From: Nesterenkonia lacusekhoensis
GTDB taxonomy: Bacteria; Actinomycetota; Actinomycetes; Actinomycetales; Micrococcaceae
Reading direction: 5' to 3'
Length of the DNA stretch: 64,000 nt
Assembly: GCF_017876395.1 (NCBI RefSeq)
Contig: NZ_JAGINX010000001.1
Location: 372,001-436,000 of the forward strand
Of this stretch, positions 49,945 through 64,000 are shown piece after piece (within the stretch, counting starts at the first letter, position 1; each line of letters starts with the position of its first letter). Made by a program: the position numbers and the translations under genes. Under the pieces are notes generated by a model. That model saw nothing but the letters and a program-made list of their open reading frames with translations, did not search any database and had not been told where the DNA came from.

Positions 49945-50343
49945 ATGACCGCACGCGTATGCAGCACACCAGGCTGCCCCAACCTGCTACCCAAAGACGG
50001 GGGCAACCAGGGGAAGGCAGGCCGGTGCCCAACATGCAGGGCCAAAGCGGACAGGGACCGGCGACCGGACGGCAACCCATACAGCACCACAGGACACAAG
50101 CAGTTCCGTGAAGCGGTCCTAGCCAAAGACCCTGTATGCGTCCTATGCCGAGCCACCAGGGCTACCGTAGCCGACCACTATCCCACCGAGCGCCGAGACC
50201 TAGTAGACCAAGGACTCAACCCGAACGATCCAACGTTCGGTCGTGGACTTTGCGTTACTTGTCACAACAGCAAGACAGCAAGAACATTCGGCTTCGGTGG
50301 CTCACACTACAAAATGCGAGCAAACCCCGAGCAAATTTCGTGA
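49945..50343 (+). CDS. HNH endonuclease next to terminase
   Basis: 132 residues. Two zinc pairs (CSTPGCPN, CPTCRAK; later CVLC and CVTCHNSK) frame the HNH core VADHYPTERRDLVDQ and RGLCVTCHNSKTAR. In many cos phages an HNH protein beside the terminase is needed for DNA packaging cleavage, so this one is probably part of the packaging machine rather than a homing enzyme. Confidence 0.85.
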   Translation: MTARVCSTPGCPNLLPKDGGNQGKAGRCPTCRAKADRDRRPDGNPYSTTGHKQFREAVLAKDPVCVLCRATRATVADHYPTERRDLVDQGLNPNDPTFGRGLCVTCHNSKTARTFGFGGSHYKMRANPEQIS

Positions 50344-50513
50344 GCAAAAAATAGGGCCGCAAAATTTGCGAGCCCAAACAAAACGGCGGGGGATACCCCC
50401 TGTTTGCGATAGCAACCCTAGCCGCCGGGTAGGGATCTCTATGGTCCGGAGGGTTCAAACATTTTGCGGCTTGCCGTTTGCAAACGCCGATTCAGCGCCG
50501 AAAGGGTGATTTT
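50344..50513. other. Candidate packaging (cos/pac) region
   Basis: Non-coding, between HNH and terminase small subunit. Repeated AAATTTGCGAG, TGTTTGCGATAGCAA, ATTTTGCGGC and CGTTTGCAAACG words, and GGGGG-ATA-CCCCC (50388-50400). Such repeats beside terminase genes often mark the site bound and cut by terminase; the cut itself cannot be placed. Confidence 0.45.
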
Positions 50514-51044
50514 GTGGCTTCTGGTGGTGCGCGTAATAGGTCTGGTCCTGCTGCTGATCCGTCGTCGGGTCGCTCTGAGGGTAGGGGCTTGAGCTTTGAC
50601 AGGTTGCCTTCTGAGGGGCGCGTTGGTGCGCCTCCGACTGGTTGGCCGTTGTCTGATCCGCAGGTGTATATCGAGACGATGAGCAATGGGAAGCCTGTTA
50701 AGGAGCTTGATCCTGTTGCTTCGGAGGAGCGTAAAGAGGCGGAGTTGTCCCTGTGGGAGCAGGTTTGGACGTATCCGCAGGCGGTTGCGTGGGAGCGGGA
50801 GCCGTGGCGGTGGAACATCGTGGCGATGTGGTGTCGCACGTTCCTTACTGCGTCTGGTCCGGAGGCTAAGGCGGCGGATAAGACGGCCTTGCACCGGTTT
50901 GGTGATCAGTTGGGGTTGACTCCTGCTGGGTTGAAAGAGAATGGCTGGCAGATTGTGCGCGATGAGGTTTCGCCGCGCCGTGAGGATTCTGAGGAGGTGC
51001 CCACGGCTAAGCGTCAGCGACGACTTAGGGCGGTGGGCGATTGA
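50514..51044 (+). CDS. Terminase small subunit
   Basis: 176 residues. A polar start (ASGGARNRSGPAADPSSGRS), then ELDPVASEERKEAELSLWEQVW and a helical C-terminal part ending in a basic KRQRRLR. Identified mainly by position before the large subunit and by size. GTG start after AAAGGGTG. From here codon use becomes T-rich in the third position. Confidence 0.75.
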   Translation: MASGGARNRSGPAADPSSGRSEGRGLSFDRLPSEGRVGAPPTGWPLSDPQVYIETMSNGKPVKELDPVASEERKEAELSLWEQVWTYPQAVAWEREPWRWNIVAMWCRTFLTASGPEAKAADKTALHRFGDQLGLTPAGLKENGWQIVRDEVSPRREDSEEVPTAKRQRRLRAVGD

Positions 51045-52699
51045 ATCAGAACACTGATGTTGGGGTTGTGAACTTTCCGACTTTGGGCGATCTGTTGGAC
51101 GCCTGGTATGAACAGCATTGCACGATCCCGGATAGCTTGGGTCGCCGGATTAGGTTTCAGCAGTCGGATTGGCAGTTCTGGTGTACGGCGAATCATTACC
51201 GTGTCAAAGAGGACGCTGTGTGGAATCCTGATCAGCCGCTTCTGGCTCAGGCGTTCACTTATCGTCGGTCTTTGATTGTTGCGCCTCAGAAGACTGGTAA
51301 GGGTCCGTGGTCTGCTGCTATTACTGCGGGTGAGGCTGTTGGGCCGACGCTGTTTGCTGGGTGGGCTCGAGCTGGTGACGTGTACCGGTGCGAGGACAAC
51401 GGTTGCTCGTGTGGCTGGTATTTCGAGTATGAGCCTGGTGAGCCGATGGGCAGGCGTCGTCCTGGGCCGCTGATTCAGCTCCTAGCTTCGTCTGAAGGCC
51501 AGGCGGGGAACGTGTACGGGCCGTTGTCCACCATTGTGATGGATGGGCCGTTGTCGGATCTTATGGCGATCCGTGAGGGTTTTATCCGCGTACTAGATGG
51601 TGATGGCGGTCCTAAGTCGGACCGGATCGATGTTGTGTCGTCGTCTGCTAAGTCTCGTCTTGGTCAGCCGATTACTTTCGCGGTGCAGGATGAGGTTGGC
51701 CTGTATACGAAGCGGAACAAGCTGACTGAGGTTGCGAATACTCAGCGTCGTGGTCTTGCTGGTATGGGTGGCCGGTCGATTGCGACTACTAACGCGTGGG
51801 ACCCGTCGATGGAGTCTTATGCGCAGGAGACGTTTGAGTCTCCGGCGAAGGATATTTTCAAGTTTTACCGGACTCCGCCTGCTGATCTGAGCTATCACGT
51901 GAAGAGTGAGCGCCGGAAGATCCATAAGCATGTCTATGCGGGGTCTCCGTGGGTGAATCTGGGTGATATTGAGGCTGAGGCGGCTGAGATGATCCGGACT
52001 GATCCAACTGAGGCTGAGCGTTTCTTTGGGAATCGCGTGGTGTATGGGTCTGGTTCGTGGTTGCATGATTCTGATTTTGAGGGTTTGACGGTTGATCAGG
52101 ATTTGCCGCCGGACGGTACTGCGGTTGCTGGCGGTTTTGACGGCTCCATGAATGATGACTGGACGGCTATTAAGCTCGAGACGCGGGAAGGGCTGCTGTT
52201 CACTCCTCTGTATGGGCCTGATCAGCGCCCGGCGTACTGGAATCCGTCTGAGTGGAACGGTGAAATTCCGCGGGGCGAGGTAGAAGCGGCGTGGGAAGAG
52301 ATTTCCCGGCGCTATGAGCTTGTGCGCGTCTACTGCGATCCGGGTTTCCATGATGAGCGGTCTTGGGAGTCGGATATCGAGCAGTGGGACCAGGATTATG
52401 GGCCTGACGTGTTTGTTCCGTGGCCTACTAACCAGGTTATGCGCATGTTTGGCGCGTTGACTCGGTTCCATGCGGATATTCAGAAGCGTCAGATTGAGCT
52501 TGATGGGTGTTTGCCGACCCGGTTGCATCTGAAGAATTGCAAGAAGTTGGCTAAGCCTGGTGACCGGTACATTCTGGGGAAGCCTGCGAATAATCAGAAG
52601 ATTGATATTGCGGTGACTTCGGTGCTTGCTCATGAGGCTGCGGCTGATGCTCGTGCGGCTGGTTGGCCGGAGCCTAAACAAGAGTACGTGTTTTTCTGA
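51041..52699 (+). CDS. Terminase large subunit
   Basis: 552 residues. The ATPase and nuclease that fills the capsid with DNA. Walker A-like RRSLIVAPQKTGKGPW (about 78-92), Walker B-like ITFAVQDEVGLY (about 210), nuclease residues in AGGFDGSMNDDWTAIKL and VRVYCDPGFHDERSWE, and a late KIDIAVTSVLAHEAA. TTG start overlapping the small subunit gene by 4 bases. Confidence 0.93.
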   Translation: MNQNTDVGVVNFPTLGDLLDAWYEQHCTIPDSLGRRIRFQQSDWQFWCTANHYRVKEDAVWNPDQPLLAQAFTYRRSLIVAPQKTGKGPWSAAITAGEAVGPTLFAGWARAGDVYRCEDNGCSCGWYFEYEPGEPMGRRRPGPLIQLLASSEGQAGNVYGPLSTIVMDGPLSDLMAIREGFIRVLDGDGGPKSDRIDVVSSSAKSRLGQPITFAVQDEVGLYTKRNKLTEVANTQRRGLAGMGGRSIATTNAWDPSMESYAQETFESPAKDIFKFYRTPPADLSYHVKSERRKIHKHVYAGSPWVNLGDIEAEAAEMIRTDPTEAERFFGNRVVYGSGSWLHDSDFEGLTVDQDLPPDGTAVAGGFDGSMNDDWTAIKLETREGLLFTPLYGPDQRPAYWNPSEWNGEIPRGEVEAAWEEISRRYELVRVYCDPGFHDERSWESDIEQWDQDYGPDVFVPWPTNQVMRMFGALTRFHADIQKRQIELDGCLPTRLHLKNCKKLAKPGDRYILGKPANNQKIDIAVTSVLAHEAAADARAAGWPEPKQEYVFF

Positions 52700-52713
52700 T
52701 TGGAGGCGGTGTT

Positions 52714-54153
52714 GTGCTGTCGTTTGCTGGTGCCGCTGCTGAGGCTGACGAGCTTTATGAGAAGTTGCGTAAGCGCCGCCCTCTGATTGATCAGTATGAC
52801 CGGTATTACGAGGGTGAGCAGCCGCTTAAGTATGCTTCTAAGGAGTGGGCGAAGTTCCACCAGGAGCGTTATAAGGGGTTTGCTGACAACTGGTGCAGCG
52901 TTGTTATTGATGCGCTGAATGAGCGTTTGCAGGTTCGCGGCTTCCAGGTGGGCTCTGAGCTCACTACGGAGTCACGCACCTTGTGGGATGACTGGAAGCG
53001 TAATGAGATGGATGCGCAGTCGTCTCAGGGTTTCTTGCAGACTATTGGCTCGTCTCGGTCGTTTGTCCTGGTGTGGGGCGATGATGAGGGGCTTCCGGTT
53101 TATTCGTGGGAGCATCCGGGGCAGGCTTATGTTGAGTATGAGCCTGAGGTTACTCGGCGTCGTCGTTCGGCTATTAAGGCTTGGAAAGAGGATGACCGTG
53201 AGTGCGTGACGCTGTTTACGCGTGATTATGTGTATAAGCTCGAGCGGCCGTCTTCGGAGCCGCGTGGCCAGCGCGAAGGCTACTCAGGTGTTTCCGCTAT
53301 TGGCGGCTGGTCTGAGCGTTCTGATGCTGATTGGGTGATTCCTAACCCGATTGGTGAGGTTCCGATGGTGGAGGTTCCTAAGCGTCCTCGCCTGAATCGT
53401 GGGCCTATCTCGGATATTTCGGGGACTATGGCCATGCAGGACGCTACTAACCTGCTTTGGGCTTACCTGTTCTCTGCCGCGGATCATGCGTCGATGCCTG
53501 CTCGTGTGGTGATGGGCCAGGAACCGCCGAAGATGCCTATCTTCGATAATTCTGGTAAGCAGATTGGTGAGCGTGCTGTTGATAATGATGATCTTCAGCA
53601 GAAGCGTCTTCTATGGCTGACTGGCAAGGATGCGTCGATTGGTCAGTGGGATTCCGCGAAGCTGGACGTGTTCACTGACATTATCAATGAGAACATTAAC
53701 CACATTGCGGCGCAGACCAGGACGCCTGCCCATTACTTCATTGCGAATAAGGGCATGAGTAACATTAACGGTGAGACTCTGAAGGCTACTGAGACGCCTC
53801 TTGTGAAGAAGGGTGATGAGTTTCAGCTGTATTCGTCGCCTGCTCTTGCTGAGGTTTTCCGTCTGGGCTCTAAGGTTCGCGGCTGGGATGGTTTTGCCGA
53901 CAAGATTTCTTCTGATTCGATCATTTGGGCGGATAAAGAGATCAGGTCTGAGTCTCAGCGGGCTGATTCTTTGATCAAGAAGAAACAGATGGGCTATCCG
54001 ATGAAGTGGCTGCTCTTGCAGGATGGCAATACTCCTGAAGAGGCTGAAGAGATTATGAACATGATCAAGGACGAGCAGGCATCTGATCCGCTGTTTGCTG
54101 CTACTGAGGCTGTGCGCCAGGGGGTTCCTGATGAGTCTGGCGGGGTTAGCTGA
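52714..54153 (+). CDS. Portal protein (SPP1 gp6-like)
   Basis: 479 residues, usual length. Forms the ring through which DNA enters and leaves the head. Seen: LYEKLRKRRPLIDQYDRYYEGEQPL, NWCSVVIDALNERLQVRGF, and INHIAAQTRTPAHYFIANKGMSNINGE, typical of SPP1-type portals. GTG start. Confidence 0.92.
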   Translation: MLSFAGAAAEADELYEKLRKRRPLIDQYDRYYEGEQPLKYASKEWAKFHQERYKGFADNWCSVVIDALNERLQVRGFQVGSELTTESRTLWDDWKRNEMDAQSSQGFLQTIGSSRSFVLVWGDDEGLPVYSWEHPGQAYVEYEPEVTRRRRSAIKAWKEDDRECVTLFTRDYVYKLERPSSEPRGQREGYSGVSAIGGWSERSDADWVIPNPIGEVPMVEVPKRPRLNRGPISDISGTMAMQDATNLLWAYLFSAADHASMPARVVMGQEPPKMPIFDNSGKQIGERAVDNDDLQQKRLLWLTGKDASIGQWDSAKLDVFTDIINENINHIAAQTRTPAHYFIANKGMSNINGETLKATETPLVKKGDEFQLYSSPALAEVFRLGSKVRGWDGFADKISSDSIIWADKEIRSESQRADSLIKKKQMGYPMKWLLLQDGNTPEEAEEIMNMIKDEQASDPLFAATEAVRQGVPDESGGVS

Positions 54154-55240
54154 TCAGCATTTCAACGCGCGCCGGTTGTTGACTGCTACTACTGGTGCCC
54201 GGTTGTCTCGGTTGTGGTCTCGCAGTGTTGATCCGGATGACATTTTCCGGTCTTGGCGTGCGACGATCCCTGAGGCTGTTGAGGTTGTTGCTGAGGGCCA
54301 GGAGCGCGCGGCGTCGGATGGCCAGAACTACATGGATGCGGCGCTTATGCAAGCTGGCATGGGTCCGGCTGGCGTGGCGGTGAATCCGGTTGGGTTTTCT
54401 GGGTTCACGTATCCGACTCGCAACGCTCCTCCGCGCCCGCTTGAGGAGTCGTTAGAATTTCCGGCTTTCACGGCTCTTGACGGTCGGCGGCGTGGTGCGT
54501 CGTCGTCTCGGTCGATGGCTTCGGGTCTTGATTCTTTGGTGACTATTGGTGGGTCGTCTGTTGCTGATGCTGGGCGTGCGGCTGATGGTGCTATCGCGGC
54601 TGCGGATCAGCGCATTACGGGCTATGTGCGGCAGGTGGAGGCTAACGCGTGCTCCAGGTGCATAATCCTTGCTGGTCGCCGTTATCGGAGTTCTGAGGGC
54701 TTTTCTCGGCACCCTAATTGCTTGTGTGAGCATGTGCCGATTATTTCGGGGCAGGGTTCGCCGCCGATCCAGGATAGCTATGAGCTTTTCAATGACCTGT
54801 CTGAGGCGGATCAAGACCGGATCTTCACGAAGGATGGCGCTCAGGCGATCCGTGATGGTGCGGATATTTACCAGGTGGTGAATGCGCGCCGGGGCATGTC
54901 CACGACGGCTGGCGGATCGCTGATCACAGAGTCTGGCGCTGGGCACCGGCGCGGCAGGGCTCGAGGCTACGCGCAGCGGCAGATGGACCGTCATGGCATT
55001 TCTGGTCCTCGCATGATGCCGGAAGAGATCTACAAGCGCGCTAACGGTAATCAGCGTCTGATTCGTGAGCAGCTTGAGCGGTACGGGTACATAGTTCCTG
55101 ATGCGCGCCGGTCTGGGGTTGAGGGCGACCCGGACCCGCAGTATCGCCGCGATTCGGACGGCGGGATCAACCCGCAATTGTCGGGCTGGTATGGGGCTGC
55201 CGCCTCCCGCCCGTCTTATGGAATGAATGACTACTTATAG
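54131..55240 (+). CDS. MuF-like minor head protein
   Basis: 369 residues. A helical N-terminal part typical of head morphogenesis proteins, and a MuF cluster CSRCIILAGRRYRSSEGFSRHPNCLCEH with Cys/His ligands at about 175-205. The long C-terminal part (GISGPRMMPEEIYKRANGNQ) has no recognised toxin domain. The ATG at 54131 overlaps the portal gene by 23 bases. Confidence 0.88.
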   Translation: MSLAGLADQHFNARRLLTATTGARLSRLWSRSVDPDDIFRSWRATIPEAVEVVAEGQERAASDGQNYMDAALMQAGMGPAGVAVNPVGFSGFTYPTRNAPPRPLEESLEFPAFTALDGRRRGASSSRSMASGLDSLVTIGGSSVADAGRAADGAIAAADQRITGYVRQVEANACSRCIILAGRRYRSSEGFSRHPNCLCEHVPIISGQGSPPIQDSYELFNDLSEADQDRIFTKDGAQAIRDGADIYQVVNARRGMSTTAGGSLITESGAGHRRGRARGYAQRQMDRHGISGPRMMPEEIYKRANGNQRLIREQLERYGYIVPDARRSGVEGDPDPQYRRDSDGGINPQLSGWYGAAASRPSYGMNDYL

Positions 55241-55259
55241 TCCCGAAAGGGGAACGAAA

Positions 55260-55907
55260 ATGCCTGAAGAGAATAGTGTGCCCGTTGAGCAGGAGAACGC
55301 CGAAGTTGGAGGAGCGCTGGCATCTCCAGGCGGCGAACGCTCGCCCGCGGAAGGCGGCACTGAGCAGGAACAGTCTGAGCCTGATTTCCGTGAGAAGTAT
55401 GAGGCTCAGCGGAAGGTGAACCGCGATCTTGAGAAGAAACTCAAGGGCGAGGCGGGCACACTGAAGCAGGAGAATGAGGAGCTTCGGGCGAAGCTGGAGG
55501 GCCGTGAGGAAGAGTTTAAGCAGACTCAGGCTCAGCGTGAAGCTGAGGCGGCGGCTCTCGAGAAGGCTAACAAACGCATCCTTGATGCTGAGGTTCGTGC
55601 GGCGGCTAAGGGTGAGCTGAATGATCCCGGTGACGCGCTCCTCTATATTGATTTGTCTTCCTTTGAGGTCGGGGAGGACGGTGCCGTTGATTCTGAGGCA
55701 ATCGCGGCGGCTATTAGCGACCTTACAGAGCAGAAGCCCTACCTAGCCGCGCAAGGTGGCAAGAAATTTCAGGGCGGCGCTGACGGTGGCCCACGTGGTG
55801 AGTCTCGTCCGGCGCAGCTTCACCAGTCGGATTTGGCTGGAATGTCATCTACAGAAATTAATCGTGCGCGCGCTGAGGGTCGGCTTGATGACCTCCTCGG
55901 CCGCTAA
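55260..55907 (+). CDS. Capsid scaffolding protein
   Basis: 215 residues, acidic and strongly coiled-coil (KYEAQRKVNRDLEKKLKGE, LKQENEELRAKLEGREEEF), with a basic, helical end (SSTEINRARAEGRLDDLLGR) that would bind the capsid. Directly before the major capsid gene. AAAGGGGAACG precedes the ATG at 55260. Confidence 0.9.
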   Translation: MPEENSVPVEQENAEVGGALASPGGERSPAEGGTEQEQSEPDFREKYEAQRKVNRDLEKKLKGEAGTLKQENEELRAKLEGREEEFKQTQAQREAEAAALEKANKRILDAEVRAAAKGELNDPGDALLYIDLSSFEVGEDGAVDSEAIAAAISDLTEQKPYLAAQGGKKFQGGADGGPRGESRPAQLHQSDLAGMSSTEINRARAEGRLDDLLGR

Positions 55908-55922
55908 CTCTTAGGAGGTCTC

Positions 55923-56795
55923 ATGTCTGTTGAGAACTTTGTCCCTGAAATTTGGAGCGCTGCACTTCTTCAGTCGCTGCGTGATCGTCTTGTGTATGGT
56001 CAGGATGGTGTGATCAATCGCCAGTATGAGGGCGAGATTGCTAACGCTGGTGACACTGTGCACATTACTCAGTTCGCTGACCCTGATGTTCGTTCTTACA
56101 CGAAGAACGGTTCTATTGATTGGGATCTGCTGGAGTCTTCTCAGCAGACTATGGTTGTGGACCAGGCGAACTACTTTGCTTTCAGCGTTGATGACATTGA
56201 TCGTCGCCAGGCGCTGAGCGGGTTCGTCGAGGAGTCCACTACTGGCGCGTCTTACAACCTGGCTGCTGAGGCTGACGCTTACCTCGCTGGCCTGATGTCT
56301 GACGCTATCACTGGTGACAATGAGCTGCCTGATGACGGTGTTCTGACTGCTGCTGACGCGTATGCGTACCTGGTGCGGCTGCGCACTCGTCTGACTCGCT
56401 CTAACGCTCCGGATGAGGGCCGTTGGGTGATCGTGCCGCCGGAGTTCTACGCGCTGCTGCTTCAGGATGACCGTTTCATTCGTGCGGATGCTGCTGGCAC
56501 TACTGAGGGTCTGCGTAATGGTTCTGTGGGTCGCGCTGCTGGCTTCGACGTGATCGAAGCTAACCGGGTGCCTGAAGTTGATGGCGGCTACCGGGTCATC
56601 GCTGGTCACGGTATCGCTACTACCTTCGCTGAGCAGATCACTCAGACCGAGGCTATGCGGCTTCAGAACACTTTCGCTGATGGTGTTCGCGGCCTTCACT
56701 TGTATGGCGCGAAGGTTATTCGTGGGGACAAGCTTGCTGGCGGCACTGTGCAGGTTGATCCGGATGGTGATGAAGGCGGCGCTGAGGGAAACTGA
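55923..56795 (+). CDS. Major capsid protein (with predicted -1 frameshift extension to 56857)
   Basis: 290 residues. MSVENFVPEIWSAALLQSLR, YTKNGSIDWDLLESSQQTMVVDQANYFAF and TEGLRNGSVGRAAGFDVIEANRVP match the P22/HK97-fold capsid group. GGAGG precedes the ATG. The last codons GAG GGA AAC TGA contain the slippery heptamer G GGA AAC; a -1 shift would read through to 56857 and add 21 residues beginning LTYPDSEVYPG, giving a minor product of about 311 residues. The tail-tube gene ends the same way. Confidence 0.93.
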   Translation: MSVENFVPEIWSAALLQSLRDRLVYGQDGVINRQYEGEIANAGDTVHITQFADPDVRSYTKNGSIDWDLLESSQQTMVVDQANYFAFSVDDIDRRQALSGFVEESTTGASYNLAAEADAYLAGLMSDAITGDNELPDDGVLTAADAYAYLVRLRTRLTRSNAPDEGRWVIVPPEFYALLLQDDRFIRADAAGTTEGLRNGSVGRAAGFDVIEANRVPEVDGGYRVIAGHGIATTFAEQITQTEAMRLQNTFADGVRGLHLYGAKVIRGDKLAGGTVQVDPDGDEGGAEGN

Positions 56796-56831
56796 CCTAC
56801 CCCGACTCTGAGGTTTACCCAGGAGCCGGGG
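56784..56831 (+). promoter_or_regulatory. Predicted -1 ribosomal frameshift site, capsid gene
   Basis: Slippery GGGAAAC (56786-56792) in the frame G GGA AAC, stop TGA next, 7-base spacer, then stem CCCCGACTC (56800-56808) with GAGCCGGGG (56823-56831), one mismatch. Bases 56784-56823 are identical to 59751-59790. The hairpin is followed by TTTT and could also slow transcription. Confidence 0.8.
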
Positions 56832-56863
56832 TTTTCCCCGCTATTGAGAGTGAGTGATTTTTG

Positions 56864-57133
56864 ATGGCTTATGTGCCTTATACATGGGCGGATGGTGAAG
56901 AGGGTGGCACTCCGATTACTGCGGAGCGTCTGAACAGCCTTGAGCAGGGTATCGCTGAGGTTGAGCTGCTTGAAGGCCCTGAGGGTCCGGAGGGTCCGCA
57001 GGGACCGCAGGGCGAGGCCGGACCGGCGGGCTCTGACGGCTCTGACGGGTCTGACGGTTTCCCTACCGAAGCCCAGTGGGATGACCTGGTTGCTCGTGTG
57101 GCGGCTCTCGAGTCCGCTGATGCTGAGGGCTAA
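56864..57133 (+). CDS. Collagen-like head-fibre or decoration protein
   Basis: 89 residues. VPYTWADGEEGGTPITAERLNSLEQGIAEVE is the N-terminal attachment segment common in phage fibre proteins. It is followed by G-x-y triplets (GPEGPEGPQGPQGEAGPAG and GSDGSDGSDG) that can form a collagen-like triple helix, then a short helix. Position right after the capsid suggests a head fibre. Confidence 0.75.
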   Translation: MAYVPYTWADGEEGGTPITAERLNSLEQGIAEVELLEGPEGPEGPQGPQGEAGPAGSDGSDGSDGFPTEAQWDDLVARVAALESADAEG

Positions 57134-57163
57134 TCGTTTCGTGTGATGTGAGAGGGGGCCACC

Positions 57164-57766
57164 GTGGCTGATGATGTGTTGCCGCCGTTGGTCACGGTGG
57201 CCGACCTTGTTGCATTCAACGTCGATGTTGAGGATGAGGAGCTTGCTAAGCAGGTAGCTAAGTCTGTTTCGGCGGGTATTCGTGCTGCTGCTGGCGTGCC
57301 GATTAGTCGGACTACTAGCACGGTCGAATTGTACGGGGTGCGTACGGCGTTCTTACCGTTGCCTGGTGGGCCTGTTGTGAGTGTCGAGAAGGTGCTTGTA
57401 AATGCCCAGCCGATTGAGGATTTCAAGATTCGTGACGGGATGCTTTGGCGTCGTTACGGGTGGGGCGATATTGAGGATGACGTTACGGTCACGTTCTCGC
57501 ATGGGTGGGACCCGGTGCCGCCTGATGTGGTCAAACTGGGCGTGAACCTGGTGGCGGCTGGCCTGAATGAGGCCACCAGCGAGGGTGGTCTTGCTTCCCG
57601 GCGTGGTCTTGTGTCGCGTCAGGAATCCATTGATGACTACAGCCTCCAAGAGTCTTATGTCCGTGGCGAGGACGAGGTTATCGACCTGACCGAGATTCCG
57701 GACCGTACCCGCGAGTGGTTGCGGAACCGGTTCGGCAATCAGGCATATGTGACGGGGAGCTACTGA
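57164..57766 (+). CDS. Head-tail adaptor protein
   Basis: 200 residues of the gp6/gp15-type adaptor: LVTVADLVAFNVDVEDEELAKQVAKSVSAGIRAAAG, GGPVVSVEKVLVN, YGWGDIEDDVTVTFSHGW. GTG start. First of the connector genes, overlapping the next by 1 base. Confidence 0.82.
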   Translation: MADDVLPPLVTVADLVAFNVDVEDEELAKQVAKSVSAGIRAAAGVPISRTTSTVELYGVRTAFLPLPGGPVVSVEKVLVNAQPIEDFKIRDGMLWRRYGWGDIEDDVTVTFSHGWDPVPPDVVKLGVNLVAAGLNEATSEGGLASRRGLVSRQESIDDYSLQESYVRGEDEVIDLTEIPDRTREWLRNRFGNQAYVTGSY

Positions 57767-58161
57767 TGCCTACTCGTGCTCTTTTGGCTCGTGGCCGGGA
57801 GGCCGCTGAGCGGCTGATGACTGACACTGTGCGTGTTGAGCGGCGAACCGGTGGGACGACGCTGGATCCGGAGACGGGCCGTGATGTGCCGGTCTTCGAG
57901 ACGGTGTATGCGGGGCGCGGGAAGCTGTCGTCTACTCCGTCTACTGGTGAGACGTATGAGTCTGGTGAGCATTCCTACCTGGTGGAGTCTCCGCGGCTGC
58001 ATCTGCCTATTGATGTGTCTGTGCGGCCGGGGGATGAGGCCGTGGTGACGGCTACTGAGACTGAGAACGCGTCTGTTGGTGCGCGTATGCGGCTCAGGGA
58101 TTTGAACCGTGGCACTCACCGGACGGCACAGCGCTGGAACGTGGAGGTGATCACGGGATGA
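57766..58161 (+). CDS. Head-tail joining (stopper) protein
   Basis: 131 residues, small beta barrel: MTDTVRVERRTGGTTLDPETGRD, VYAGRGKLSS, LPIDVSVRPGDEAVVTA. Position after the adaptor and size fit a stopper. The ATG at 57766 overlaps the adaptor stop. Confidence 0.75.
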   Translation: MPTRALLARGREAAERLMTDTVRVERRTGGTTLDPETGRDVPVFETVYAGRGKLSSTPSTGETYESGEHSYLVESPRLHLPIDVSVRPGDEAVVTATETENASVGARMRLRDLNRGTHRTAQRWNVEVITG

Positions 58162-58550
58162 GCGCGAACATTCAGGGGCTGGGTGATCTGGATGCGCTGG
58201 TGCGCGATCTTGGTGTAGCCCCTAACAAGGCGCACAGGGCTATCCGCAGGGTGATGAAGCGCGGTGGCCAGGAGATGAAAAAGAAGATGCAGGCGGATTT
58301 CCGGGGGTCCAGGTCTTTCCGTCATGTTGGCCGGTCGGTGACGTATGACGTTGTTGAGCGGCGAGGCGCTACCACCGTTGAGATTGGTACTGATGCGGCC
58401 CGGTCGTCGTCTGCTCCGCTTTCTGGCATCGCCTACTTCGGTGGCGCAAGAGGAGGCGGCGGGACCGTGCAGGAGCCGGACTACATTCTCGAGGCCGAGG
58501 CCGATAACGCGGTGGACTGGATCGAGAAAGAACTTAGGGGGCTGCTGTGA
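58158..58550 (+). CDS. Tail completion protein (HK97 gp10-like)
   Basis: 130 residues: LGDLDALVRDLGVAPNKAHRAIRRVMKRGGQEMKK and IAYFGGARGGGGTVQEPDYILEAEADN, typical of HK97 gp10-like proteins. ATGA overlap with the stopper gene and GTGA overlap with the next. Confidence 0.82.
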   Translation: MSANIQGLGDLDALVRDLGVAPNKAHRAIRRVMKRGGQEMKKKMQADFRGSRSFRHVGRSVTYDVVERRGATTVEIGTDAARSSSAPLSGIAYFGGARGGGGTVQEPDYILEAEADNAVDWIEKELRGLL

Positions 58551-58996
58551 GTGTCCCTAACCCGCTCGAGGCTATCGCGGCGCTGATCAGTGACCCGGCC
58601 GTGAACGTTGCTCAGGGCAGCGCGCCACTGTCGATGCCGCCTGCGCTGTCTGACTTCCCTTACGTGGTGATCTGGTCGGATCTGCCTACCCGGTTCAGTG
58701 GTGGCGGGTTCGATGAGCCGTCGTTGTCGGATCGGCCTGACGCTTTCTCAGCGACTGTGCGGCTGACGTACGCGGCGACCTCTGCGGCGTCGCTGTTCTG
58801 GCTGGTGAACCGTGTCCGTCCCTCACTGGAAGACGCAGAGCTGGTCATCGATGGTTATCAGATTGGGCGGCTTCGTCCGCGCTCCCTCTTCCCGTCTGAG
58901 ATTGATCGGACGATCACACTCGAGGGAGGTATCTCCCCGGTGTATGCGGTGGATGAGGTCGAGCTGGTCGGTACAAGGGCGAAGGAGGCTTCCTGA
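58547..58996 (+). CDS. Tail terminator protein
   Basis: 149 residues: VPNPLEAIAALISDPAVNVAQGS, PYVVIWSDLPTRFSG, FWLVNRVRPSLED and RSLFPSEIDRTITLEGG. Fold and position match phage tail terminators that cap the finished tail. GTG start. Confidence 0.78.
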   Translation: MSVPNPLEAIAALISDPAVNVAQGSAPLSMPPALSDFPYVVIWSDLPTRFSGGGFDEPSLSDRPDAFSATVRLTYAATSAASLFWLVNRVRPSLEDAELVIDGYQIGRLRPRSLFPSEIDRTITLEGGISPVYAVDEVELVGTRAKEAS

Positions 58997-59202
58997 TGGT
59001 GAGTAAAAAGAATGACGGCAAGGTTCGTGCCGTCGATAAGAACGGGCGCAAGGTCTGGGTTCCAGCCGCGTGGCTGGACGTGAAGAAATTTGGTTTCCGG
59101 GTTCCTCCGAGTCAGCGCAAGGCTAAGCGGAATAAGCCCACCACACATACTACTGCGCTTGTCGTTACTGACAGCGCTACTGACTCTAAGGAGGATTCAT
59201 GA
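58996..59202 (+). CDS. Small basic phage protein, 68 aa
   Basis: KKNDGKVRAVDKNGRKVWVPAAWLD, then a basic stretch (SQRKAKRNK) and a Thr/Ser tail. Small proteins of this type often sit before the tail-tube gene. Function unknown. ATGA overlap with the tail-tube gene. Confidence 0.6.
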   Translation: MVSKKNDGKVRAVDKNGRKVWVPAAWLDVKKFGFRVPPSQRKAKRNKPTTHTTALVVTDSATDSKEDS

Positions 59203-59762
59203 GCCGTCGTGTTCTGGCTATGGGAAAGATCAAGTTCGCGGTGCTGACTACTGCGCCGGCTAACCCGGAAGCACCTACTGCGACTGAGCTGAATGAGGGC
59301 ATTGATGCGTCGTGCCTGATTCGTACCGCTGATTTCAATTTCTCGGCGCAGGCGTCCACTACTCAGGACGTTACTCTGCTGTGTCAGAAGAATCAGGCTA
59401 ACGCGCCTACTCAGAAGCAGCACCAGTCGGAGTTCACTTATGACCTGTACTTCGATGAGGACGGGCGCAGCGTTCCTCCTGCTGGCGAGATTTCGGCTGA
59501 GGATCAGCATGCTCTTCATGCGGCTCTTCGTGAGTACAACGAGGAAATTTACGTGTATGCGCGTGAGACTTCCAAGGACTCCGCTGAGCTTTGGGAGGCT
59601 GGCGATGAGATTTACATGGGCGGGTCGTTCCTGACCGATGTGCCTCAGCGCCAGAACGGTGATGACTTCATTAAGCGTCACGCTGTTCTTCTGCCTCAGA
59701 TTGTTCACGACAATATTGAGGTTGCGGAAGATTCTGATGGCGGCGGTGAAGAGGGAAACTGA
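59199..59762 (+). CDS. Major tail (tube) protein (with predicted -1 extension to 59824)
   Basis: 187 residues: KIKFAVLTTAPANPEAPTATELNEGIDASCLI, NQANAPTQKQHQSEFTYDLYFDEDG, LREYNEEIYVYARET. GGAGGA precedes the ATG. The last codons GAG GGA AAC TGA hold the same slippery heptamer as the capsid gene. A -1 shift would add 21 residues beginning LTYPDSEVYPG and end at 59824, giving about 208 residues. Confidence 0.9.
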   Translation: MSRRVLAMGKIKFAVLTTAPANPEAPTATELNEGIDASCLIRTADFNFSAQASTTQDVTLLCQKNQANAPTQKQHQSEFTYDLYFDEDGRSVPPAGEISAEDQHALHAALREYNEEIYVYARETSKDSAELWEAGDEIYMGGSFLTDVPQRQNGDDFIKRHAVLLPQIVHDNIEVAEDSDGGGEEGN

Positions 59763-59797
59763 CCTACCCCGACTCTGAGGTTTACCCAGGGTCGGGG
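59751..59797 (+). promoter_or_regulatory. Predicted -1 ribosomal frameshift site, tail-tube gene
   Basis: Slippery GGGAAAC (59753-59759) in frame G GGA AAC, stop TGA next, 7-base spacer, stem CCCCGAC (59767-59773) with GTCGGGG (59791-59797). Compared with the capsid copy the 3' arm has changed while pairing is kept. Confidence 0.8.
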
Positions 59798-59869
59798 GTC
59801 TACCCCGAATCATCTGAAGGCTGATACCGCGATCAGCTTTTGACAACTTTATACACATTGTTTGAGAGG

Positions 59870-59917
59870 AGGCCCCGCTGTCTGGTCATCGTGAGGATGA
59901 CCAGGGCGGGGCCTTTT
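59870..59917 (+). terminator. Terminator after the tail-tube gene
   Basis: AGGCCCCGC/GCGGGGCCT with inner CTGGTCATC/GATGACCAG, then TTTT. It would separate the head/tube genes from the chaperone and tape-measure genes. The TTGACA at 59840 before it has no convincing -10 at the right distance. Confidence 0.85.
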
Positions 59918-59937
59918 CGTGTATCCGAAAGGGAACC

Positions 59938-60573
59938 ATGACTGAGAACGCCGCTGAGACCATTAGCCCGGAAACGTACGATATTGAGGCGTGGCTTAAC
60001 GACGCGCACCTGCCTGAAGAGTCTGCCCGTATCTACCGGCGCGGCGACCTGCTCGGCTCTATTAACGCGCTTCAGGATCGCATCAGGGAGCTGACTACGG
60101 CGGTGGACTCTTCCACTGATCTGGATGACACGAAGGCGTTCACGCGGGAGCTGTCTCAGGCTCGCTCTGAGTATGAGGAGCTGCTGACCCAGTTTGGCGA
60201 GTCGGGCCTGACCGTGTTCTTGCAGGCTGTCCCGTCGCGGAAGACTCGCCAGATCCGCAGGCGGGTCAACGAGGCAGAGGAAGCCAAGGTTAAGGCCGGT
60301 GCGACCCGCCAGGATGCCAAGGTATGGGGCAACGAGGAGTTCATTTACTCGATGGTTGCTGCCGCCGTTGTCGGCGTTGAAGGCCCTGATGGTGTGCGTC
60401 ATCCTGCCGAATGGGACGCCGACATTCTTCGTGAGCTAGAAGACCGCATCGGTCCGGGCCAGTTCGGGGAGCTGCTTGAGGCGCGTAAGCGTGCTGATGG
60501 GAAGCTTCAGGAGCCGGACCCGGATTTTTTGCTCACAGTCTCTGGCACCAGCAACGGCGATACCGACGGCTGA
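59938..60573 (+). CDS. Tail assembly chaperone (G-type)
   Basis: 211 residues, helical: IEAWLNDAHLPEESARIYRRGDLLG, REKAFTRELSQ-like segment, and WGNEEFIYSMVAAAVV. Binds the tape measure during tail building. The heptamer T TTT TTG lies in frame at 60525-60531, 14 codons before the stop; a -1 shift there joins it to the next gene. Confidence 0.85.
   Translation: MTENAAETISPETYDIEAWLNDAHLPEESARIYRRGDLLGSINALQDRIRELTTAVDSSTDLDDTKAFTRELSQARSEYEELLTQFGESGLTVFLQAVPSRKTRQIRRRVNEAEEAKVKAGATRQDAKVWGNEEFIYSMVAAAVVGVEGPDGVRHPAEWDADILRELEDRIGPGQFGELLEARKRADGKLQEPDPDFLLTVSGTSNGDTDG
60525..60531 (+). promoter_or_regulatory. -1 frameshift site of the tail assembly chaperone
   Basis: TTTTTTG in the frame T TTT TTG (X XXY YYZ). 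After slipping, GCT CAC AGT continues without stop into the frame of the gene at 60579, producing a fused protein of about 317 residues. Confidence 0.82.
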
Positions 60574-60578
60574 CCAAG

Positions 60579-60890
60579 GTGCTAGAGACGGCCGAGAAGT
60601 ATGGTCGTCCGCCGTCCACGTGGTTGGGCGGTCTTGATGGTGAATGGGGCGAGAAGGACCAGGTGCTGACTCTGGTCTACACGCTCTATAAGGATGGGCT
60701 GTGTTCGTGTGGTCAGCCGATCATCCTTGCCCACGATGACGAGAATTCCGGCTGGTTTGTGGCTCAGGAGTCTGTGTGTGTGGCGTGTGCCGCGGTGGAG
60801 GATCACCGCGAGGACAAGGGCGATGACGTGGAGAAGGGCGCGAAGGTGTTTCCGGTGAGCGAGCTAGACCAGAAACCCTCCGGCTCCTAG
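60579..60890 (+). CDS. Tail assembly chaperone, frameshift-made C-terminal part (T-type)
   Basis: 103 residues when read from its own GTG, but most likely made as the C-terminal part of a -1 fusion with the previous gene. ETAEKYGRPPSTWLGGLDGEWGEKDQ, then a C-x-C and C-x2-C set (LCSCGQP, CVACAAV) that may bind zinc. Its end overlaps the minus-strand lipoprotein gene by 4 bases. Confidence 0.82.
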   Translation: MLETAEKYGRPPSTWLGGLDGEWGEKDQVLTLVYTLYKDGLCSCGQPIILAHDDENSGWFVAQESVCVACAAVEDHREDKGDDVEKGAKVFPVSELDQKPSGS

Positions 60891-61273
60891 TCGAACCGCT
60901 CCCCGCCAAATGTCTCGGCGATCTCATCCAGCAAGTTCGGATTGTCGTGAATGATCATCCACGTATCCGAGACCAACGTCTGGTTGCCGTTGAGCGACGC
61001 CCCAAAGGAAATCCTGGTGGTGCTCCCCGCGTAATCCGGCATGTCCTCTTCCCACGCGATGAGGGCCATTCCTGAGCTGCATCGAAGCTCTTCGCCGTGC
61101 CCTTCGAACACGTCAGCGCGCCCCTGCTCAGGGCAGGGGAAGCCTTCGCTCTCTAGCGCTTCGTGGAAGTCGTCAACGGTTTCGTAATGCGCGTCAGGCT
61201 CTACGCCTCCGCATCCGGTGACTGTCAGTGCGAGTGATGCGCCGATGGCCAGTGTGAATCCCCTCTTGATCAT
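60887..61273 (-). CDS. Phage-encoded lipoprotein, antisense in the tail module
   Basis: 128 residues on minus between the chaperone and tape-measure genes, all else around being plus. The signal MIKRGFTLAIGASLALTVTGC has a basic start, hydrophobic core and lipobox VTGC at about 21. The mature part is acidic with two further Cys (FPCPEQG, LRCSSG) that could form a disulfide. Codon use is GC-ending, unlike the T-rich neighbours, so it is a real gene with separate history. TAAGAT lies 6 bases before the start codon and might be a -10 of a leaderless message. Likely made in the lysogen; see findings. Confidence 0.8.
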   Translation of the reverse strand: MIKRGFTLAIGASLALTVTGCGGVEPDAHYETVDDFHEALESEGFPCPEQGRADVFEGHGEELRCSSGMALIAWEEDMPDYAGSTTRISFGASLNGNQTLVSDTWMIIHDNPNLLDEIAETFGGERFD

Positions 61274-61307
61274 TCGATCATCTTAGCTCTTTTTTGGAGG
61301 TTTCGTT

Positions 61308-64000
61308 ATGGCTGATCGTCGCGTAAGGATGATCCTTGAGGCCCAGGTTGACAGCTTTAATCAGCGTTTGGCTTCGGCTCGGCAGTCTGCTGACGGCTTG
61401 GGCAGCTCTCTGCGGACGGCGGTGAATCAGCCGGAGGTCCAGCAGATGGGCCGCGCGCTGACTGCTTTCGGCGCGGTGACTACTGCCGCGCTGGGTGCGG
61501 CGGCGAAGTCAGCGATGGACTGGGAGACCTCTTGGACTGACGTTATGCGGCGTACTGATGGTACGCCTCAGCAGCTCGCGGCTCTTGAGGATGGGCTGCG
61601 GGGGATTGCTCGTGAGATGCCTGCTACTCATGCGGAGATTGCTGAGGTTGCGGCGTCTGCGGCTCAGCTGGGCGTGAGCGTGGAAGACGTCGAGGACTTC
61701 ACGCGGACGATGGTCATGATGGGTTCGACCACTGATATGACTGCGGATCAGGCGGCTACTGCTATGGCTCGATTCGCTAACGTCATGGGCACCAGCACTA
61801 GTGACATGGACCGTCTCGGGTCTGCTGTGGTGGATTTGGGTAACAACGCGGCTACTACTGAGTCAGAGATTATGACGATGGCTCAGCGGCTGGCTGGTGC
61901 TGGTCAGGCTATGGGCATGACTGAGGGCGATGTGCTCGGTATCGCTGCGGCCCTCTCTTCGGTGGGTGTTGAGGCCGCTGCGGGCGGTACTGCGATCAGC
62001 CGGACCATGTATGACATTGATGCCGCGGTGTCTCAAGGTGGCGAGTCTCTTGAGGCTTTCGCTGAGGTTGCTGGCATGTCCGCGGATGAGTTCTCGCAAT
62101 TGTGGCAGGACGACGCCGCCGCAGGGCTTGAAGCGTTCGTCTCTGGTCTGGGCCGGGTCACAGAGGAGGGCGGCTCCGTCGCTGAGGTGCTGGCAGAGCT
62201 GGGCATCAGTGAGCAACGGACTGTTGCGGCTATGACTCAGATGGCGGCTGCTGGTGACATGCTGGGCGATTCGATCCGTCGCGGCAATGACGCGTTTGAA
62301 GACAACACAGCGATGTCTGCTGAGTACGCCTACATTCAGGAGACGCTGGGTGCGCAGATCCAGGTCTTCAAAAACCGCGTCAATGATGCGGCTATCGAGC
62401 TGGGCCAAGTGCTCCTTCCTGCTATTGAGATGGTTGTCACTGGGCTGTCTGAGCTGGTGACGTGGTTCGCGGATCTTCCCGGTTGGGTGCAGGGAAGTAT
62501 TGTTGCGGTGGCTGGACTCGCTAGCGGCCTGTCTCTGCTTGCGGGTGCCGCGATCATGCTTGCTCCTGGCCTGCTTGCGGCTCAGACGGCGCTTAGTGCG
62601 CTGCGTGGCACTGCCGGGCGAACCGGTGGCGTCATGGGCAGGCTTGGGCGCACGGCGGGCATCGCCACCGCCGCTATCGCTGGCCTCTCTATCGCTAACG
62701 ATGTGTTTGACCCTAAGCGGACCACTGGTAACGCCGAGGACTTCACTAATGCCCTTAGCGGCATGGAGGTCCAGCTTGGTGGCGCGAGCGGTGGCCTTGA
62801 CGAGCTGTTTGAGCAGACGATTGTGGCCGGCACGGGGATTGAGAGCCTGGACCATGCGCTGAATCTGAAGAACGATAACACTTTTGCCCGTGGCATCATG
62901 CATATCGGTGGGCTTATCCCAGGTGTCGGAGATGGTGCGGCTGAAGCTGATGCGGCCATTCAGGAGCTTGATGGGGCGATGGCCGGTCTCGTGTCGGCTG
63001 GGTCTATTGACGCGCTGGCGGCTGGGTTCAATGAGATCCGGCACCAGGCCCACTACGCGGACGCTTCCATTGGCGAAATTATGGAGGATTTTCCACAGCT
63101 CGAGACGGCTCTTGAGTCGGCTGGTATCTCTGCTGAGGAGCTTTCTGAGGCTACTAGCTGGGCGGCTGAGGGCATCACTGAGGCTGGCGCGGCTTCGGAG
63201 TATGGCGGGGTCACGCTTGGTGATCTTGCTGATCGCATGTCTGACGCGGAGCGCGAGGCCCTGGCGGCTGAGCTGGGCGTTGAGGATCTTGATGACGCAC
63301 TGGGCGGCATGGGCGATGAGGCTGAATCTGCGGAGGAAGCTATGCGCGGGCTTGTCGATTCACTCATGGAGGCCGGTGTGCTGACTCGTGATGCTCGTGC
63401 GGCGTCTCGTGATTATGAGGCGGCGCTTGACAACCTGACGGACAGTATCGCTGAGAACGGGCACACGCTAGACACGACTACTGAGGCGGGCCGAAATAAC
63501 GAAGCCGCGTTGGACGGTATCGCGGATGCTGGCCAACGCGTTTTGGAGTCGATGGCCGCTAACGGGGCGACTCAGCAGGAGCTTCAGGGCCAGCTTCAAC
63601 GGACGTATGACGACTTGGTAGCGGGCGCTATGGCTTTCGGCCTTACTGAGCAGGAGGCCACAGACCTGACCCGCTCGATTCTGGGCGTCCCTGATGGCGT
63701 GACCATTGACTCGTGGATGAGTGATCAGGCTCTGCAAACGGCTGAACGGACCCGCCTCACCTTGCTTGGTCTGGATGGGTGGAGGATCTTCACCGAGCAT
63801 GTCCACACGGTGAGGCAGCGCACGATTGGTGCGGCACAGAACTTTGCTTCCCGCGGCTGGGCGAACATCACGGGCCGCACCTATTCGACTGGTGGCGCTG
63901 TTGATGCTGTGGGCGGCCCGGTGCAGGATAACATTCCTGCGCTTTTGTCGCCTGGTGAGCATGTTCTGACGGCGGCTGATGTGGCCGCTATGGGTGGTCA
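61308..64000 (+). CDS. Tape measure protein (5' part, runs off the window)
   Basis: At least 897 residues with no stop before the window edge. Starts at 61308 after TTGGAGG. Sets tail length and takes part in DNA entry. Seen: TP901-type core AMDWETSWTDVMRRTDG, AEVAASAAQLGVSVEDVEDFTRTMVMM, MARFANVMGTSTSDMDRLGSAVVDLG; then a hydrophobic region (VQGSIVAVAGLASGLSLLAGAAIMLAPGLLAAQ) and long helical repeats. Its 5' end lies 34 bases from the antisense lipoprotein start. Confidence 0.93.
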   Translation, partial: MADRRVRMILEAQVDSFNQRLASARQSADGLGSSLRTAVNQPEVQQMGRALTAFGAVTTAALGAAAKSAMDWETSWTDVMRRTDGTPQQLAALEDGLRGIAREMPATHAEIAEVAASAAQLGVSVEDVEDFTRTMVMMGSTTDMTADQAATAMARFANVMGTSTSDMDRLGSAVVDLGNNAATTESEIMTMAQRLAGAGQAMGMTEGDVLGIAAALSSVGVEAAAGGTAISRTMYDIDAAVSQGGESLEAFAEVAGMSADEFSQLWQDDAAAGLEAFVSGLGRVTEEGGSVAEVLAELGISEQRTVAAMTQMAAAGDMLGDSIRRGNDAFEDNTAMSAEYAYIQETLGAQIQVFKNRVNDAAIELGQVLLPAIEMVVTGLSELVTWFADLPGWVQGSIVAVAGLASGLSLLAGAAIMLAPGLLAAQTALSALRGTAGRTGGVMGRLGRTAGIATAAIAGLSIANDVFDPKRTTGNAEDFTNALSGMEVQLGGASGGLDELFEQTIVAGTGIESLDHALNLKNDNTFARGIMHIGGLIPGVGDGAAEADAAIQELDGAMAGLVSAGSIDALAAGFNEIRHQAHYADASIGEIMEDFPQLETALESAGISAEELSEATSWAAEGITEAGAASEYGGVTLGDLADRMSDAEREALAAELGVEDLDDALGGMGDEAESAEEAMRGLVDSLMEAGVLTRDARAASRDYEAALDNLTDSIAENGHTLDTTTEAGRNNEAALDGIADAGQRVLESMAANGATQQELQGQLQRTYDDLVAGAMAFGLTEQEATDLTRSILGVPDGVTIDSWMSDQALQTAERTRLTLLGLDGWRIFTEHVHTVRQRTIGAAQNFASRGWANITGRTYSTGGAVDAVGGPVQDNIPALLSPGEHVLTAADVAAMGG

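Follow-up and report, generated by a model that had tools for sequence, protein, structure and literature searches.

Lactobacillus phage A2 reportedly undergoes -1 frameshifting in both its major head gene and its major tail gene, findings ascribed to Garcia (2004) and Rodriguez (2005). It is the nearest precedent for the element analysed here, a cassette carried at the 3' ends of the major capsid gene and of the major tail (tube) gene in what is, judged by its sequence, the late operon of a prophage in the chromosome of Nesterenkonia lacusekhoensis. The window, meaning the whole 64,000-nucleotide (nt) stretch of DNA that was analysed, covers C1:372001-436000 of the host chromosome (assembly of 2.74 Mb in two contigs); coordinates below are those of the window and refer to the + strand unless stated otherwise. 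According to the available text of one source, phage A2 requires a -1 shift twice, once for a component of the head and once for a protein of the tail, and belongs to the phages with -1-derived immunoglobulin (Ig)-like extensions (PMC5009743). Recomputed from its record, the two A2 genes have a 13-nt block, CCCCAAAAGCGTA, in common at their ends, and their -1 extensions of 86 and 81 amino acids (aa) are 38% identical over 82 aligned columns, both matching Big_2 (PF02368).

Mycobacteriophage Bxb1 carries related C-terminal extensions of about 90 aa (47%) on gp14 and gp19; these are described in the available text as dispensable and absent from close relatives, those of the capsid being external to the shell, and the same shell/tube pattern with Ig-like motifs is noted there for Wildcat (PMC8704799). 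We recomputed 41% over 85 aa for the Bxb1 pair and found no in-register heptamer at either gene end. In SPP1 a frameshifted tube protein, gp17.1*, is a dispensable minority form with an FN3 domain, the plain to extended ratio being 3:1 according to the passages available (PMC8718954). An earlier note on this DNA, made from the sequence alone, had named Listeria phage PSA as the precedent; the cps and tsh genes of PSA, however, are reported to undergo +1 shifts on proline codons (PMC5009743), and the two +1-frame tails in its record (NC_003291) do not match each other. In the published cases that were found, the extensions are folded or long tails of 80-90 residues. Because of the A2 and Bxb1 precedents, both the same tail on shell and tube and the -1 route are already known; what is new here is a tiny linear repeat peptide together with a nucleotide-identical cassette that is absent from the relatives examined. 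To our knowledge, a 21-residue peptide encoded by a nucleotide-identical cassette would make this the smallest such system known, and no report of a short shared frameshift peptide was found in the titles and abstracts searched, most subscription papers being outside that coverage.

The capsid gene (55923-56795; 290 aa in the zero frame; phrog_267 major head protein, E 3.9e-65) and the tail gene (59199-59762; 187 aa in the zero frame; PF25595 Phage_TTP_16, E 9e-28; phrog_2491) share a block of 40 nt, at 56784-56823 and 59751-59790 respectively. Direct comparison bears out the earlier claim that the two blocks are identical at 40 of 40 positions and span both stop codons. The base directly 5' of the block already differs, and on the 3' side identity drops abruptly to 17 matches over the next 35 bases, an edge which argues for a recent copying event. 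The wider repeat measures 110 nt at 76% and is the longest direct repeat listed within 50000-64000. A 38-nt core, allowing up to three mismatches, found no match in 100 dinucleotide shuffles of the window, and a 141-nt query over the capsid copy detected only the capsid and tail copies in the host's own genome. The zero-frame protein ends are also similar (VQVDPDGDEGGAEGN versus IEVAEDSDGGGEEGN, 8 of 15 residues identical), and both C-termini are rich in Gly and acidic residues (DGDEGGAEGN and DSDGGGEEGN).

The last codons of both genes are GAG GGA AAC TGA, which places the slippery heptamer G_GGA_AAC (56786-56792 in the capsid copy, 59753-59759 in the tail copy) in zero-frame register for tandem -1 slippage and directly adjoining the TGA stop (56793-56795 and 59760-59762). 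The -1 frames open with CTG at 56792 and 59759, each adds 21 codons, and both end at an equivalent TGA (56855-56857 and 59822-59824). Stop included, the extensions occupy 56792-56857 and 59759-59824 and translate as LTYPDSEVYPGAGVFPAIESE for the capsid protein (2223 Da added) and LTYPDSEVYPGSGVYPESSEG for the tail protein (2215 Da added). Translation thus agrees with what the earlier note had read from the letters, that is, a heptamer directly 5' of TGA in both genes and 21 extra codons with a shared start and differing last residues. Written as hexads, the capsid peptide is TYPDSE VYPGAG VFPAIE and the tail peptide TYPDSE VYPGSG VYPESS. This triple Tyr/Phe-Pro hexad occurs twice in the six frames of 98 kb, both times in the cassettes, and never in 40 Markov simulations. 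Extensions of 21 aa made of such hexads are too short for a domain and are not Ig-like. A 5-nt word stands 5' of each heptamer (56775-56779 and 59742-59746) at equal spacing in the two copies, which is weak evidence. The capsid -1 stop is separated by a gap of 6 nt from the start of the next gene (56864).

Each heptamer is followed by a predicted hairpin, at 56799-56832 in the capsid copy (-18.8 kcal/mol, z -2.1) and at 59767-59797 in the tail copy (-24.6 kcal/mol, z -2.6). The predicted folds give a spacer of 6 nt for the capsid and 7 nt for the tail, so that the 7-base spacer proposed earlier is exact for the tail copy and one base too long for the capsid copy. The 3' arms differ between the copies and yet both are predicted to pair, as had also been claimed; shuffled 3' arms folded as well in 11 of 2000 trials for the capsid and in 0 of 2000 for the tail, while among synonymous recodings of the -1 peptide an equally stable fold was reached by 62 of 3000 for the capsid and by 1 of 3000 for the tail. 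The sequence TTTT follows the capsid hairpin, and no T run follows the tail hairpin. No Rfam match was obtained over 50000-64000 at E <= 1. Between the tail tube and chaperone genes there is a further, very strong hairpin (59866-59918; -43.9 kcal/mol, z -7.75) ending in CCTTTT, and inspection by eye shows GC-rich inverted repeats 3' of the tail gene in some relatives as well, L104 and L105 among them. A terminator scan called neither cassette hairpin, a result that says little because the strong hairpin at 59866-59918 was missed as well.

In the diverged stretch past the 40-nt block, the two copies are most alike in the -1 frame, with a BLOSUM similarity of 17 against 7 for the zero frame and 2 for the +1 frame. 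When the same 18 differences were placed at random (50,000 trials; positions independent, even base choice), the observed -1 score, which is 23 in this test as the shared Gly and stop are counted, was reached in 0.34% of the trials, and the -1 similarity together with the same stop in 0.07%. A landmark 3' of the tail gene, TGACAACT (59841-59848), followed by AGGCCCCGC, is common to the window and to the relative L104, which has no cassette (capsid 74%, tail 48% identical). Measured to this landmark, the tail -1 stop lies at 19 nt and the tail zero-frame stop at 81 nt, whereas the ordinary tail stop of L104 lies at 18 nt. Besides L104 and copies of the window, no other fetched locus has TGACAACT with GGCCCCGC behind it.

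We looked at how often gene ends of this kind carry such a site. In a set of 95 distinct capsid gene ends and 91 distinct tail gene ends, drawn from genomes, viral contigs and phage records (the window's own ends included, four ends off their locus skipped, and the capsid viral contigs being the best 80 of 577 confirmed), the only in-register XXX(AAA/TTT)N heptamers within 30 nt before the stop are the two of the window. The earlier note had proposed a search of related phages for the same 3' repeat; it was made, and the repeat was not found in the other phages, viral contigs and genomes scanned. The pattern GGGAAACTGACNTAC matched 83 stretches of viral contigs, all of which were inspected and are apparently due to chance; GARGTNTAYCCNGGNDSNGGNGTNTWYCC had no match, GGGAAACTGACNTAYCCNGA had one in viral contigs and ten in genome contigs, and TAYCCNGAYWSNGARGTNTAYCC had two in viral contigs, these too apparently by chance. 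Blastn of the region against phages gave six records with short matches only, apparently by chance, and tblastn of the extension peptide against phages gave none, although its power is weak at 23 aa. A pattern scan of 30 genomes of the genus returned the host's own two exact copies and three others with two mismatches, apparently by chance, and in a scan of 396 genomes of the order 17 other genomes matched solely query positions 1-38, the Gly linker. Scanning genome contigs with the capsid protein yielded 49 stretches, in which no relative was confirmed.

The layout, the duplication, the frame-specific similarity, the predicted hairpins and the absence from the examined relatives can be read directly from the sequence. 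They fit best with programmed -1 frameshifting, as the earlier note had put forward, and with the copying of the cassette between the two genes, also suggested there. Frameshifting with a minor extended product is the usual interpretation of an arrangement of this kind, and it would here yield a minority of capsid and tube proteins bearing a Tyr/Phe-Pro extension, a reading to which we assign a probability of roughly 0.7. The cassette would consist of a Gly/acidic linker, G_GGA_AAC, the UGA stop, the hairpin and a 21-codon -1 frame, placed on two genes. Most ribosomes would terminate at UGA and release the plain capsid or tube protein, and a minority would slip by -1 on GGGAAAC, aided by the hairpin and the stop, so that both proteins would gain a C-terminal peptide of [T/V](Y/F)P hexads. 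Both extended forms would share the junction ...EGNLTYPDSEVYPG... and then have distinct ends. We infer that slippage proceeds at some rate, that extended subunits enter the virion and that they have a role there; the virion would then display a few copies of a near-identical linear Tyr-Pro peptide on shell and tube. The 40-nt core may have passed recently between the two genes, by copying or gene conversion, and gain of the cassette in this lineage is the best explanation of the sequence comparisons. G_GGA_AAC is among the four commonest heptamers of the IS1 and IS3 insertion sequences and is very likely used there, according to the available text (PMC4066793). A low slippage rate would suit a minority subunit.

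As in A2, an in-register heptamer stands at both gene ends, with one presumed -1 shift per gene, and the -1 extensions of capsid and tail are related to each other. A predicted RNA structure at a suitable spacing, also expected of an A2-type pair, follows both heptamers. The heptamer itself differs from that of A2, the A2 extensions are Ig-like domains of 81-86 aa whereas those described here are a linear Tyr-Pro repeat of 21 aa, and A2 shares 13 nt of DNA whereas here 40 nt are shared across stop, loop and peptide codons. Tails that are related between capsid and tube and that close relatives lack recall Bxb1, whose tails, however, are fused in frame on every subunit; here a TGA intervenes and a -1 shift is needed. 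Longer shifted forms of both structural genes would be common to PSA and this prophage, but neither end has a CCC before the stop here and the +1 frame stops within a few codons. SPP1 would be similar in having a frameshifted minority form of the tube protein; it differs in the FN3 domain and in being described for the tail. The lambda gpG/gpGT heptamer is GGGAAAG, which is of the same GGGAAA type as that of the cassettes. In lambda, however, the site lies in the tail chaperone gene (PMC5009743), and chaperones are not in the virion. The present prophage has its own candidate for that function, a T_TTT_TTG heptamer at 60525-60531 in the tail assembly chaperone gene, in register and with the -1 frame open from there into 60579-60890, which is probably a third, ordinary -1 site.

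Several observations weigh against programmed frameshifting at the cassettes. In E. coli GGGAAAC is of low efficiency, according to the available text (PMC4066793). The codon usage of the -1 frame (-0.10 for the capsid, -0.29 for the tail) falls under the 5th percentile (-0.055) of 133 true late-gene stretches, the off-frame medians being -0.85 and -1.05, and for the tail copy the zero frame reaches +0.008, above the -1 frame, though a stop counts against the zero frame; codon usage neither proves nor excludes coding in the -1 frame. That the -1 frame is open for 21 codons carries little weight on its own: in relatives lacking a heptamer it can run on for as many as 237 codons beyond the stop, and it stayed open in 74% of random divergences. 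The codon-position bias of the differences is weak (8, 6 and 4 at positions 3, 2 and 1). Five more strong heptamers lie in register within 11 late genes, besides the cassettes and the chaperone site, and the 5' word is also in range at 700 of 2782 background positions. The landmark comparison involves one relative, L104. In the relatives examined the heptamer is not conserved, since none of the 94 further capsid ends and none of the 90 further tail ends has one in register near the stop, and the cassette was found in no other phage by pattern, blastn or tblastn searches or by the genus and order scans.

The hairpins could also be what matters about the cassette, as an RNA element just past the stop that could shield the end of the mRNA, act in attenuation of transcription, adjust expression or help coupling, with a -1 frame that is incidental. 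Both hairpins are strong, the copies follow two genes whose products are abundant in the virion, TTTT stands after the capsid hairpin and codon usage does not favour the -1 frame; we nevertheless regard this explanation as unlikely, as the tail copy has no T run, the tail gene already possesses the far stronger terminator-like hairpin at 59866-59918 (z -7.75), and the in-register heptamers at both stops, the frame-specific similarity and the triple hexad would be left unexplained. The abrupt edge of identity, from 40/40 to 17/35, and the homologous ends examined, which have no such cassette, would also suit a recent and largely neutral copy, that is, a 40-nt gene conversion or duplication between gene ends, with a slippage product that is made in traces and unused. 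In the older, diverged part, however, frame, stop and GxGV(F/Y)P pattern are retained to a degree beyond simulated chance, and pairing is maintained via different bases, which makes neutrality quite unlikely.

Zero-frame readthrough of the UGA would add 22 and 26 residues (counted by eye). The UGA is followed by C, a leaky context, in both copies no further zero-frame stop occurs for at least 20 codons, and in the tail the codon usage of the zero frame is not worse than that of the -1 frame; against this stand the lower similarity between the copies (7 versus 17), the unequal lengths of the extensions and the heptamer, for which readthrough gives no explanation, and we hold it to be improbable. 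A separate 21-aa peptide made by re-initiation at the CTG, a rare start codon with GAGG just 5' of it, is very improbable, given that the spacing is too short, that there is no standard start codon and that the heptamer is again unaccounted for.

If frameshifting does take place, the peptide would most likely bind weakly, either to the cell surface or to a virion partner that shell and tube have in common. The earlier note had spoken of a fixed fraction of the subunits, of a surface peptide and of a common partner; all three points are inferences, and no partner was found. The structural model of the tube protein is fair (mean predicted local distance difference test score, pLDDT, 74.9) and its zero-frame C-terminus (residues 181-187) lies under 50, in keeping with a flexible linker; that of the capsid is poor (mean pLDDT 51.6, residues 1-113 and the C-terminus 282-290 under 50) and its end says little. 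Disorder at the end of the tube model and the Gly/acidic composition of both ends would leave the extension peptide tethered by a flexible stalk. In lambda, T5 and YSD1, what is added at the C-terminus of the tube protein faces outward, according to the available text (PMC8718954). Foldseek found no match for the tube model at E <= 0.001, the best being the SPP1 and lambda tubes; the best match of the capsid model was Che8, and the capsid sequence likewise matches gp6 of PDB entry 8e16, which is from Che8 by the entry title. Glycosylation by a phage enzyme is reported for Che8 in the text available (PMC11256854). The extension may be modified in this way too, by a phage enzyme yet to be seen: a scan of 20 proteins of the prophage and its edges, which include some host genes, detected no glycosyltransferase, many small prophage open reading frames being outside that scan, and the five PF00535 matches of the host's own genome all lie outside the window.

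More tentatively, and with the odds against it, the cassette may be conceived as a portable frameshift tag of about 75 nt, in which slip site, stop, stimulatory hairpin and the code for a Tyr-Pro ligand could be pasted together onto the ends of highly expressed genes, so that a set, small share of the protein shows the ligand; here the shell and the tube would both carry the tag, aimed at a single receptor or virion partner. A cassette of this small size would show how such extensions arise and spread within a genome. It touches the wider question of why phages add the same extension to shell and tube, sometimes on a fraction of the subunits.

The gene order of the late operon is portal (SPP1_portal), scaffold, major capsid, small head-fibre-like protein, connector, tail tube, tail chaperone and tape measure, and past the window edge there follow a Dit-like protein (just below the Pfam cut-off), a 1460-aa tail protein, an amidase and an integrase. 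The small head-fibre-like gene (56864-57133) has a collagen-like repeat; its residues 1-32 match phrog_5711 head fiber protein (E 1.6e-10) and Collagen scores 26.7 bits, below the cut-off of 27.2. By eye, relative L105 (75%) seems to have no head-fibre-like gene at the place directly after the capsid gene. In keeping with an actinobacterial host, 340 out of 401 phage records with a capsid match bear the name of Mycobacterium, Brevibacterium, Streptomyces or Arthrobacter, though Aeribacillus phage AP45 supplies the best two, and four of the five tail protein matches come from Arthrobacter and Brevibacterium phages.

An unrelated HK97-type capsid gene (PF05065) ending in GGGAAAC-TGA was seen in two IMG/VR contigs, L012 (2107-3923, - strand) and L054, which came from the 83 pattern matches selected for the GGGAAAC heptamer. 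It has a fold of -27 kcal/mol just past the stop and an open -1 frame of 129 residues, which has its own ATG and could therefore be a gene in its own right. A distant relative of the tail tube protein (27%) is encoded on the host's second contig (G000:C2:19652-20125) and perhaps belongs to a second phage-like element. Between the tail chaperone and tape measure genes, on the - strand, lies a gene for a lipoprotein-like protein of 128 aa (60890-61273) that has no Pfam match; its position suggests, as a guess, a surface protein expressed from the prophage, perhaps one acting in superinfection exclusion.

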